64,000 nt of DNA from Piscicola geometra (Eukaryota > Annelida > Clitellata > Hirudinida > Piscicolidae). The position numbers were made by a program, and so were the translations under genes. The stretch lies in assembly GCA_943735955.1 (NCBI GenBank), contig OX030957.1:3874801-3938800 (forward strand), read 5' to 3'. The notes beneath the pieces are model-generated. The model did not search any database, was not told the origin of the DNA, and saw nothing but the letters and a program-made list of their open reading frames with translations. This document shows positions 36,001 to 42,000 of the stretch, piece after piece (position 1 is the first letter of the stretch; each line of letters opens with the position of its first letter).

Positions 36001-39000
36001 ATTTAGCTTAAAAGAACAAATTGAAATGGTAAATAACTATACCAGTGTGCTGATTGAATATGGCTCTGAATAAGGATAACAGATGACACAGAAAAAACCC
36101 AAATACGAAAAAAAAATGGAAAAAAAAAATTATTAAACATTTTGAAATGCAGAGCCCTTTGTTTTTAAACTAATTATTTTAAAGTTTGATGTGGCCTACA
36201 ATGAAACGTTAAAAATAATCTAAACAAAAATGAGTTTCTCAAACTACTTTTAGTAAAGAAAATATATAAACATGTGAAAATATGCAACTTGAATTTAGAA
36301 TTAAGTATTATAAAGAAAAGTTTTTATCACAAAATATAAACGTTAAAATTAATTAAAAAACTTATTTACTTTAACAACCACAAGGAAGAAAAATGGAAAT
36401 AAATCATTAAAATTAAAAAGAAATATTATAAAAACAATTTTAAATAATAACTATAAGAACCGAGCAGCTAATTTTTAATGTTTTCAAAAATAACTCAACC
36501 TGTTTCAAGGCTTCGGCATGTGTTGTGGAAGACACCTGAAAGAAATTCCAAGCCAATGATAGCGAAAATGACGATGGCGAAAAGAACTAGCAAGCCGATC
36601 TGCAGCAAGGGCGCCATCGCTTTGAGGATGGATTTGAGAACCACTTGGAGACCTTGTAGGTGAGAAAGTGAAATAAATAAAAATTAATTAATTAATTAAT
36701 TAATTTTGGAGTTTAAAAAAAGTGATAAACAGATTCTGAAAAAAAACTATACGTAATAATAACGAATATTGACGATGAGTTAGTTCTACCATTTCAAAAA
36801 TAACATTCAAAGCACTAGATCACACAACGATTTGATAACTTAAACATTCGAAAGCCTTTTTGTATGAAGATCATTGAAAAAATTCAGACCAACTGATTTG
36901 ATGGAAAAAAAAATTAAATTCATAAAAAAAAAGAATTAATCTCTAGAAATATATATAAAACCGTTTCGAAACTTAATCCGTTAACATTATTTTACATAAA
37001 CAACTCAACTCAATGGTGAAAGTCTGCTAGTAAAAATGCTTAACTTTTAAGCAACCCACTTGGCACTCCCGAAACCAGTTTTAAAGGTCTCAGGACTCGG
37101 ACAGCCCTCAAAGTTCGCAAATTAAACGTGCTGCCACCTCCACCTGCTGCGAACAACGCTATAAACCTACAATGGAGGTTTAGGTAGAAAGAAATTATTT
37201 CACCACTTTTAAGATTTTGCTTATTTAAACACTAAATTGTTTTTTCCCATGTTTCAAAACATTTTGCAAATGATTTTTGAAGTATTTTCAGGTTTACTAG
37301 TGTAAAATGCATTTATAAAAAAAATGTAAATTAAAATATATTTTAGAATCTAGAAAAAATTGAAAAAAGTATGAAAATTTTAAATTAATTTTGGTAGAAA
37401 TATAAAAAGCGTGAACGTAATTTACTTTCTTAATTGTTTTCAAATTCAAAGATATGAAATGAATCACTAAACTTTGGTTTAATTAATTACCTCGAACTTC
37501 ATTAAATTTAGATGTTTAATAACTATACCATATAGTATATGCTTTTAATAATTTGACCAACTGAGCAAGGGTTCATATTGGTCATACGCCTACAACATCC
37601 GACTAACTTTGAACTAGTGGACATTTTCACAATAAAGCTAGAAGTTCTCTAATTTGCTAAATCAATTTTTTGTTTGTTTTTTAAACTAGTAATACTGCAA
37701 TGAAGACCTCTGTATGCTTTAAAAGAACAATAAATAAAAAAAATTCAATAAAATTTATTAAAAAAGTTCTAGACCAAGAGTTAAAAATCTAAAGTTATTC
37801 AAATCACGCTTAACGGGTAGTCAAGCGTATAACGACTCCCAACTTGACTAATGGTAAAGTGTCCTAACTTCAAATTCAACACAGCTATTCTTTCAAGTGC
37901 TGCAGTAAAAAGTCTATTTTCAAAAGGAAGACATCTTACGTGCTAAAGGATTATCTCTGTCAGATGAAAACTTCGAGATGCCACTTTTCACGAAGAGCAA
38001 CATTCATTTTATGAAAGAAGAAAAAAAAAGATTAATTTATCTATATATTGCGTTTTTCCCATTGTCACAATATTATTTCTTTCTTTGTCACTTTAAATTT
38101 AAAGCAAGAGTTTTTAGTTTGATAAAAATAACAATTTCATTCTATAATAGTAATCTTCTGTTTCATTTTAACCTTTTTTACTTCAACTTTGATTTTTTTT
38201 GAAAAAATGAAATATAATTTATTAACGTGAACCATGAATTTGAATCAAACTAACTGAATTTTGGTTAACGGATTAACGTTTATTGAAGTTTAATTTTTGA
38301 TTAACTGTGCCCATCTGTGCTAACATACTAGAAGAATTTTCAAATGAAAAAATATACACATTTTCTAATTAAAAATTAATAAATTTATAAGATGATAAAA
38401 AATACTTCCATTTCTTAATCTTTTAAAATAAATTAGTATGAATAAGCCTATTCAAGAATAAAAAGCCAATTATTTAAAAATAATATAGAATTAATCAATA
38501 CAAAACTACAATCAATTTTTCTAATGCAGCGTCACAGCGAACCAAGCTCCAAAATGAGTTCTAAATGATCAACAATTCTGCATTCGGACTCTCAATCGAA
38601 CTTCATGCCACTCAAAAAATTTTACTAACATAAAACTATCAAATAAAACTTAAGTTTCAGTTTTAAAATAAAAAAACTTAAGAACTAGAAAAATGTATTA
38701 ACATATGGCTCCAACTGCTAATGTTTCTAAAATAAAAATCGAGATCTTTTATCATTCAGGTTCAAAAGCGCGAACTACAGCAATCAATCGCTTCAACGTG
38801 AGTCGTTATTCACCACGGCTGTCACAAACACGATACTAATATGAACATTCCACGTTTTCGAATTCAATTGAGTGGTGATTGTTGGTTCGATTGTAGTCTA
38901 CTGTTTTTTAGCTTTATCATTATTTAGTTTTGATTTTTAAATTCGCCATTAATTCTAGGTTTTGTATTTTAAGAGCTAACGAAAATTCTAGTGTTTATTT

Positions 39001-42000
39001 TGCCTTCACATGATTTCTAATAGAATGCTTTAGAGGAAGTTTCAAACACTTTTCATAATATTTTAGTTAGTCTATAAACAATATTTAGTGTCTTGAGTTA
39101 GGCTTAAAGAACTTAGAGGCTTGCTTGGGCCTCTCTTTGTACAATTGCTCGTGTGTGTAAATTTATATTTTTTTATGTGTGCTTTTGAAGGTTTTATGTG
39201 TGTTTGGGTGTATTTTTGATTTTTCTAATTCACAGTTGAGTGATATACATGCGACGATGCTCAAAATTACTTTCAAAGCCGGTGACAAGCTTCAAAGGCC
39301 TCAAGACCCTGAGGGCTCTGAGGGAAGGCTGGTCAAACCTCTTTATGAATAGAGACAGCAGTCTGCAAGGGATGGTTGGTGTAGAATTGACAGGTTTTCA
39401 ATGTCTATCAGCTTTTGCTGATAGACTACTAGTGGAATTTGAAAAAACCAATATTTTGTGCCCTTCTGATCTATCTATACCAAGTTTTTCCAACGTCATC
39501 ATCCATCATGAATAATGGAAACTATGTGAAATTACATATAACTGATGATAAAGTTGTGAAAATAGTTTTTTTCTGTCTGTTTTGACATGAAAAATGTCTT
39601 GGGTGAAAGTTTCTCTTGGTTATTAAATTTTTTTGATATAGTTTACATGTATGAATAATGAAAAATTCAAAAACAAAAATTGTAAATGTTTTATTAATAA
39701 CCTTTACGTTTTTTTAGCATGAATTACATAGAAACAGTTTGGCAATAAAGACAAAGTATAATACTTGCACCAGAATCCAATAATTTAGACAACTTATGAG
39801 TATTTTGTAAGTTAATGGTATTTAAAATTGCGTTTGATAAAAAAATAGTTTATGAATTGATTGATTATTTAAAATCTTTTTAATAATAAACTATAAAGAA
39901 ATAAATAACTTTCGACTATATCTTTTTAAACAATATTATTCATTTTTAAATTTTTGTAACAATTATTTACCAATAATGATAAGGTTTTTAGAAGACTCAT
40001 TGAAATTACTCGAATAATAAATTTTATTAAAATCTTTTATTTATACTTTAGTTTCCCACAAAAAACTATTTCAGAACACATTCTTCATTGTGAATTAGAC
40101 TTTAAAATGCTTAAAATTAAATTGAAAAACAAATTCAATTAATAGTTTTGCGAAATTGAATTGAAAAAAAAATTCTATTCATAGTTTAGTGCAAATAAGG
40201 TGGTGGGAAAAGCGTTCGATAGATGAGAAGGATTCTATTTGAAACTCTTTTTTTAAAGATTTTCTTGATAATAAAAAAATATTTTTTAATACAGACTAAA
40301 GAAAATATTTAAATATAAAATTAGAAAACAACAATTTTTTTTCGTGCTAACCATATTCTAAATAGCCCGTTTAAAGATTTTTTCCAATTTTTTAATATAT
40401 GTTAGAATGCCAATTTTGAAAAAAAGATTTATTAAACTGTTTATGAGATCATATTAAATAATCTAACACCACCAAGTTACGTTGTTGAGGGCCAGAGTTT
40501 AAAGATATTTTAACTACTAAAATTAATTTCTAATAATAGCCCCAACTCTATCCTAAAGTTACACCACTGATGTAAGATTATTTAATATGAATCTATTTAT
40601 GCACTTATTTTTTCTATATTAATAAATAAACCTCTTAAGGTTTCAATTGAATATTTCAACAATTACTCGTCACACAACACCAAGTTTTTCTTAAGGGCTT
40701 TACAAATGCATCATTGACTTTAAAAGAAATGAAAACTAAATAAAGCCCTTCAGCATCAACACACATAGAAAAAAAAGTTTTTCTAAATAAAATGGTTTTT
40801 ACTAGCTAAGTAACAATGCCTTTCATTGAAAATTGTTCAATTACTTGTGGATTATTCCCGTTTTTAAAAAAATTGAAAATTTATTTTATTACAAAGTAGT
40901 TACGTTAAGTTACATTTTTACTCAGAAAATGATTTTATTTAAAAATGAATAACTAAAATGCTTTTTGAAAATCTTTTTTATAAGCCTTTCTTTTCTGCAA
41001 GTCCTATTCTGAATGTTAAATAATTAATTATTTTTAAAAGAGTTTAACAAAGAATTTTCTTTATTCTAAATAATTGAGTTATGTAGGAAAGTTAAATTTT
41101 TATCGAGAAAGCTAAAATTAATTTTTCAGCACTTTCTATTTATTTAAAAGCATATAAACGTACCCATTTCATAATAGATTAACTCACACGCATGTAGAGA
41201 AGACAGATCAAAATTAAAGTTATTATAACATAATAGGATTAAATTAATCTCTTCAGATTTCATGCCTAAAAACTTTTAAGAAAGTTATAATCAATTTGAG
41301 TTCTAAGACAAACGGTTTCTACGGCTCGAAGGTATTCCACTTCAAATGCACTCATTATACACAAATAATTAAAATACTTTTTTTCAAGCATAACTGATTT
41401 TCCAATTTAATTTCTCACATTTGGTTCTGTTTTAAGATTCAATATAGCCTAAAAAAAACTTTTTTTTATTCAAGTTAGAAGATTCAAAGAACACTGAAGT
41501 TATGGCAGCCAATAATGAGAATATTCTATAGTACTTTAAAAAAAAATTCGAATTTGATTGAATTCTCAAAATGAAATATATTAATTTGATAATTTTCAAA
41601 CTTTCTGGTTTCGATTATTATTTTCATTTATTTTTTTTTTCTTTTAAAAAATATAAATCAATTTTCATAAAATTTATGAATAAGCATAAATAAAAAAACA
41701 GCAATAATAGTAGACTTATAATTCAATTACAAACAACATCAAGTAGTTTTCACAAAACATTCAAGTTATTTAAAAGTAATATTGGCACATAAAAAACAAT
41801 AGTAGACTAAGGAATCAGATACACAAAACGGTGAGTACCCAGTGACGACGACTACAAAGTCCATGATGTTCCAGGCGTTTCTCAAATAGGCTCCTCGGTG
41901 GAAGAGAAAGCCAAGAGCCACAACTTTGAAGGTCGCCTCGATGCAGAAAATCATCAAAAAGTAAATCTCAGTTTTCTCCTGGAAAATAGTGCAATAGTTA

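Follow-up and report, generated by a model that had tools for sequence, protein, structure and literature searches.

A 64,000-nucleotide (nt) stretch of the genome of the fish leech Piscicola geometra (assembly GCA_943735955.1, contig OX030957.1, positions 3,874,801 to 3,938,800), referred to below as the window, carries on its minus strand what is very probably a gene for a presynaptic-type Cav2 calcium channel, the kind by which transmitter release is usually triggered, in which two exons, designated A and B, encode the S4 voltage-sensor segment of domain I (IS4) and each transcript has to contain one and only one of them. As judged by comparison, exon A is an old, conserved type of Cav2 exon that recurs in a paralogous leech gene, in further spiralian phyla and in a crinoid, and is unlike the arthropod IS4A exon. 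The frame-locking of the pair, its conservation and its distinct sensor chemistry are established at the level of sequence.

Two frame-locked voltage-sensor exons

By tblastn with the Cav2 proteins of Helobdella, Schistosoma and Lineus as queries, the gene was followed through exon cores that lie in collinear order between position ~44036 and position 19855 of the window. When the domain I peptide of the B isoform was compared with solved channels, Cav2.1-2.3 ranked ahead of Cav1, Cav3 and Nav (Cav2.2, 5.5e-93; Cav2.1, 2.3e-89; Cav2.3, 5.8e-86; best Cav1, 1.8e-61).

Both IS4 exons have AG/GT borders (cttgcag/ACTGCT...GAAA/gtaatt for the 92-nt exon A and attgtag/GTTTAT...CCAA/gtgggt for the 107-nt exon B; coordinates in Table 1), and each is entered in phase 2 and left in phase 1. 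The exon upstream of the pair finishes in phase 2 (ACTGG/gtactc), the downstream exon is entered in phase 1, and the lengths of A and B are both 2 modulo 3. Joining A to B gives ...GFE-AGT-TTA-TAG, with a stop at the third codon, and omission of both exons shifts the frame, with a stop reached near the end of the S5 exon. The preliminary description of this DNA had stated both that the two exons encode domain I S4 in these phases and that the frame permits neither their joining nor their joint omission, and both statements were reproduced, as were the coordinates and borders. The pair thus combines neighbouring homologous exons of equal phase with double inclusion and double skipping that are non-productive, as in mutually exclusive exons.

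Exon A encodes LLSLFIKRFDQPSLRALRVLRPLKLVTGFE(S) and exon B FIALFAAGGGGSTFNLRTLRAVRVLRPLKLVSGVP(S), peptides of 31 and 36 residues, respectively. In A, a proline occupies the position of the outermost arginine (R1), the remaining four S4 charges are intact, and the inner end reads TGFES instead of SGVPS. The upstream copy is therefore as it had been described, with proline for the outermost arginine, TGFE for SGVP and a shorter peptide, the difference being five residues. On profiles made from the exons of other animals, the open reading frame (ORF) with A scored 60.2 bits with the A-type profile and that with B 65.0 bits with the B-type profile, against 9.7 and 11.8 bits, respectively, for the highest-scoring ORF among 10 dinucleotide-shuffled versions of the window.

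In the mechanism proposed, a splicing factor would pick A or B by cell type, and the wrong products, containing both exons or neither, would be lost through the frameshift. Inclusion of B would give the standard domain I voltage sensor, and inclusion of A a sensor without the outermost gating arginine, five residues shorter and with an altered entry to the S4-S5 linker. The A channel would carry less gating charge in sensor I and, we propose, hence a shifted activation voltage; it would probably also be placed differently in the neuron, as are the channels with fly IS4A and IS4B. By analogy with the fly precedent (PMC11828482, in part), a difference between A and B in activation voltage and synaptic role is plausible. 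As other bases for exclusion, U2/U12 incompatibility and steric crowding were ruled out by the ordinary GT-AG borders and the 2.1 kb between the exons (by eye).

The exon pair in leech paralogues and in other animals

In the leech genome (171.0 Mb, 66 contigs; tblastn on fetched stretches), at least three Cav2-like genes were found besides that in the window. One of them, designated C2, carries A (92 nt) followed by B (104 nt), in the same phases as in the window gene. Of the 30 A codons compared between the two genes, 5 are the same, 17 have silent differences and 8 encode another residue; of the 22 aligned B codons, 7 are the same and 15 have silent differences, with 0 residue changes. The Nei-Gojobori method (NG86) returned a valid silent divergence (dS) for neither exon, which we read as saturation, and a replacement divergence (dN) of 0.17 for A. 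Such very heavy silent change argues that both exons have long been kept by selection, B more strictly. The weaker conservation of A (8/30 residues differ, against 0/22 in the B core), together with the fact that its splicing is read here from the genome, would also suit a decayed relic of an exon duplication that is no longer spliced in. However, A has an open frame and intact splice sites, has been retained in two paralogues despite the heavy silent change, and is of the type that molluscs, flatworms and a crinoid have as their sensor in long Cav2 protein records, which makes a relic very improbable.

The remaining leech genes differ in their IS4 content. In the Cav2 gene on C4 only a B exon was seen, with 2,500 bases of the relevant intron masked, so that absence of A is not proven. 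The divergent Cav2-like gene CX (C3:5.88 Mb) showed only an A-like IS4 exon, flanked by introns of ~194 and ~153 nt, and the two leech Cav1 genes each showed a single IS4 exon, without A features, in the stretch read. The pore ring of CX (C3:5.881-5.90 Mb; L045, L053) reads A/E/S/D in the motifs TMAGW, TGENW, TRSGW and TLDAW (the third by eye), against E in the window and C2 genes. The CX channel may not be calcium selective.

The C4 gene (C4:2.36-2.42 Mb, minus strand; loci L048-L051 and L040-L042) further includes two exons for the alpha-interaction domain (AID) of the I-II loop, ~140 nt apart, each of 116 nt and running from phase 2 to phase 1 (by eye), at ~29375-29755 of the concatenated reverse complement. 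This pair sits where the fly has its I-IIA/I-IIB pair, whereas the window gene yielded only a single AID-like stretch. A second alternative site in the window gene was rejected on that ground and because, among the 8 of 12 candidate pairs displayed in a filtered tblastn scan for duplicate exons, IS4 alone was a real duplicate; the others were overruns or similarity between domains, and an unfiltered version was dominated by overruns.

The spread of A-type IS4 among animals was assessed by three protein searches with IS4, the third with the crinoid exon as the query. The best 120 of 231, 2443 and 754 matches, respectively, gave 339 distinct proteins in a collection clustered at 90% identity. 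A wide pattern assigned 22 of these to A, 292 to B, 7 to an arthropod type, 11 to arthropod type plus B, and 7 to none (an earlier, first pattern had found 19 A among 227 proteins). With an exon-delimited parse the counts were 21 A, 288 B, 16 arthropod-type and 14 unparsed, the last including P0136, the 22nd A-type protein. The A-type proteins among the listed matches (P0001, P0003, P0035, P0048, P0121, P0130, P0131, P0134, P0135 and others) belong to trematodes and cestodes, an orthonectid, the molluscs Pinctada, Pomacea, Biomphalaria and Bulinus, and the crinoid Antedon.

In each of the 21 A exons that were parsed, 31 residues separate VVVTG from LQVVL and the final S is preceded by E or Q (an FES, IES or FQS end), and R1 is P in 20 and A in one; R or K is found at R1 in 283 of 288 B exons. 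Leech A fits the A-type form in its 31 residues, its uncharged R1 and the E or Q before the final S, and the flatworm, mollusc, orthonectid and crinoid exons resemble it in length, in P (once A) at R1 and in the end motif. With a profile built from nine unique A exons, Piscicola and the crinoid left out, leech A scored 62.5 bits, leech C2 A 56.1 and the crinoid exon 52.0, against 34.0, 28.7 and 41.0 bits, respectively, with the B profile. No A-type protein of a vertebrate, arthropod or nematode was among the 339 listed, in which clustering at 90% identity may hide isoforms; since similarity to A sets the order of the lists, any such protein within the length range would be expected near the top. 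As no second A-type deuterostome protein was among the matches listed in the search with the crinoid exon, the deuterostome evidence is the single Antedon record. Recurrence of the pair in a leech paralogue, and of A-type IS4 at the same place and length in the Cav2 proteins of other phyla, supports the frame-locked alternative exons put forward in the preliminary description.

Whether A is a variant of the exon or a marker of the gene was judged from a Cav2 protein tree built without the IS4 columns. The window gene groups with leech C2 (95), and then with Helobdella and the leech C4 gene (100). A-type Pomacea pairs with B-type Nucella (86) and A-type Pinctada with B-type Saccostrea (100), and Antedon joins the chordates (90). 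After removal of the long-branched leech CX and A-type Intoshia, forcing seven A-type proteins into a clade cost 537 log-likelihood units (approximately unbiased (AU) test, p 0.0004, with 2000 resamplings, fewer than the program advises). Outside IS4, the seven A-type proteins are thus not a clade, and A is a variant at the level of the exon.

The A-type (P0134) and B-type (P0113) proteins of Echinococcus group within the flatworms, and their differing flanks indicate separate genes. Together with leech CX and C4, this suggests that the two IS4 forms can be split between duplicated genes. The predicted structures of a cestode A-type and a cestode B-type protein (mean predicted local distance difference test score 63.1 and 67.4, respectively, from 22-row alignments) were too low in confidence to use. 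The two Echinococcus genes and the A-like exon seen by itself in CX are also what would be expected if A-type IS4 marked an old Cav2 paralogue, the leech gene having gained the exon by conversion or by an assembly of two genes. That origin is most unlikely, as the IS4-free tree puts the A-type proteins of Pomacea and Pinctada with the B-type proteins of their relatives and the A clade is rejected, and as A and B occur in both leech genes with identical order and phases.

Several points weigh against an exon-level, mutually exclusive pair of wide occurrence. In the IS4-free tree, the leech rows were stitched from tblastn pieces, the deep nodes are weak (39 to 90) with CX unresolved (39), and the choanoflagellate outgroup is misplaced beside Tribolium (56); Biomphalaria, which is long-branched there, may be a separate paralogue. 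Outside the leech, A and B were seen in separate proteins, mostly of separate species, in a collection where clustering hides the isoforms of one gene; the flatworm, mollusc, orthonectid and crinoid records have one IS4 form each, and the pair within one gene is shown for the leech only. Between the leech paralogues A is less constrained than B, with 5 residues differing over the last 22 codons (by eye) against 0 in B. RNA pairing among the three introns was tried as the basis of exclusion, and the best ungapped complementary stretch was within the range of 12 dinucleotide shuffles for every intron pair in both leech genes, a weak negative; hence a built-in exclusion mechanism other than the frame was not found. 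We infer the exclusive use of A and B, and any use of A in this species, from genomic sequence.

Layout of the gene and its neighbourhood

The exons of the window gene are listed in Table 1. The G+C content of the window is 29%, compared with 35% printed for chromosome 3 (PMC11134150, in part).

Table 1. Exons of the Cav2 gene in the window.
Feature	Position	Strand	Evidence
Cav2 exon with IS1 (conserved core, borders approximate)	43588..43740	-	tblastn
Cav2 exon IS2-IS3, phase-2 end just after VVVTG	41839..41978	-	76.6% identity to Schistosoma P0003 over 47 aa
IS4 exon A, 92 nt, phase 2 to phase 1, P for R1, 31-residue form, TGFES end	39271..39362	-	67.7% identity to Schistosoma P0003 IS4; 60.2 bits with A-type profile
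IS4 exon B, 107 nt, phase 2 to phase 1, canonical Cav2 sensor with RTLRAVRVLRPLK and SGVPS	37060..37166	-	PDB Cav2 alignments; 65.0 bits with B-type profile
Cav2 exon S4-S5 linker and IS5, phase-1 entry	36500..36652	-	73.2% identity to Helobdella P0029
I-II loop AID exon (core)	32353..32472	-	sole AID-like stretch found in window gene
Further Cav2 exons, domain I pore loop to C-terminal region (conserved cores, borders approximate)	19855..35077	-	tblastn chain with Lineus P0298

The gene's final open frame closes with DDEGDWY (17235-17215, minus strand), which we take to recall the acidic-W-C tail by which Cav2 binds presynaptic PDZ proteins. Downstream of the gene lies an exon of a DEAD-box RNA helicase (7786-7583, minus strand; Pfam DEAD, 2.2e-06), followed by more helicase-like frames down to ~4877 (by eye), a second piece checked having no Pfam match. 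At 55297-54695 (minus strand), an open frame of 201 residues, with a high content of R, E and K, a CxCG...H...C pattern and no Pfam match, resembles a retrotransposon remnant (by eye only). At gathering thresholds, no Rfam match was obtained in the window.

Comparison with cacophony and other channels

Alternative IS4 exons in Cav2 are already known from fly cacophony. According to the part of PMC11828482 available, IS4A is the first alternative exon and has one more positive charge than IS4B, IS4B alone reaches the active zones at the neuromuscular junction, and the choice of IS4 exon affects both activation voltage and active-zone placement. Both fly exons are printed there as 99 bp, a multiple of three, and are counted at 35 residues each in PMC12370356 (in part), figures that do not agree. 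With a length of exactly 99 bp the fly exons would not be frame-locked, whereas the leech pair is.

The arthropod-type exons keep R1, have an added arginine and end in SRIPS or similar. We infer from the printed charge statement that their RMLRSF form is fly IS4A. The preliminary description had left the homology of the leech and cacophony pairs open and had proposed an alignment and tree of the exon peptides. When these were made, the arthropod type scored and nested as B-like (the Glossina exon gave 25.8 bits with the A profile and 56.8 with the B profile). In the best tree of a 24-residue core, arthropod-type exons are nested among the B exons and the A exons are united, with the crinoid basal, and the A clade lies beside a leech Cav1 sequence, a placement that is unreliable at 24 residues. 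A clade of A with arthropod IS4A was nevertheless not rejected (AU p 0.275); the AU value of tree 2 in this test was an artefact of near-identical likelihoods and was not used. The leech alternative exon lacks the arthropod signature, so that the question is answered in part, with common origin disfavoured.

A single exon duplication shared with cacophony, one alternative copy having since diverged beyond recognition, is unlikely. The site is the same and the alternative copy is upstream in both (fly order from PMC11828482, in part), 11 of the 339 listed records, all arthropod, have IS4 in tandem as if the exons did not join in frame, and the AU value leaves the joint clade standing. However, the profile scores of the Glossina exon and the best exon tree place arthropod IS4A with B, this exon keeps R1 and adds an arginine, and the fly exons at the printed 99 bp (PMC11828482, in part) would not be frame-locked, although the 35 residues of PMC12370356 (in part) do not agree with that length. 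The tandem records themselves (P0017, P0024, P0076, P0133, P0228, P0232, P0241, P0244, P0250, P0251 and P0262) join an arthropod-type to a B-type IS4 with odd residues between, and look like gene-prediction errors.

Among other channels, the Cav2 genes of Aplysia, oyster and octopus have an obligate alternative exon pair (PMC5818475, in part), which is like the leech pair in being obligate but lies at IVS2 instead of IS4; an IS4 pair is not in Table 1 of that source. The S4 core of leech exon B differs from that of vertebrate Cav2.2 at 2 of 23 residues, and, among the S4 segments, conservation is generally highest in domains I and IV (PMC7939481, in part). The available parts of PMC3972191 and PMC7939481 do not mention an IS4 pair, and no published report of one in a non-arthropod Cav2 was found in a search that had most subscription journals outside it and judged most papers from their listings.

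Tentatively, and with somewhat less than even confidence, we suggest that an alternative IS4 exon of Cav2 without the outer gating charge was already present in the last common ancestor of protostomes and deuterostomes. It would have been kept in spiralians and some echinoderms and lost in vertebrates and nematodes, while in arthropods the canonical exon would have given rise to a new alternative, and flatworms and leeches would have split the forms between genes after duplication. Many invertebrates, with one main Cav2 gene, may diversify Cav2 through splicing, as has been shown in the fly. The A/B pair would provide a natural, repeated experiment on the role of the outermost charge of sensor I, and the A-type exon may bear on mollusc and flatworm work built on one cloned isoform.

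The leech pair and Drosophila IS4A/IS4B are alike in that two alternative exons occupy the IS4 site of a Cav2 gene, with the alternative copy upstream. Fly IS4A has one charge more than IS4B, whereas leech A has one fewer than B; the arthropod records read RMLRSF...SRIPS and leech A PSLRAL...TGFES; and the fly exons are printed as 99 bp each (PMC11828482, in part), compared with 92 and 107 nt in the leech. The predicted leech pair therefore shares its site and exon order with the cacophony pair, but not the chemistry of the alternative sensor, and is a second and chemically opposite solution in which charge is lost, not gained, and whose spread among phyla is much wider.

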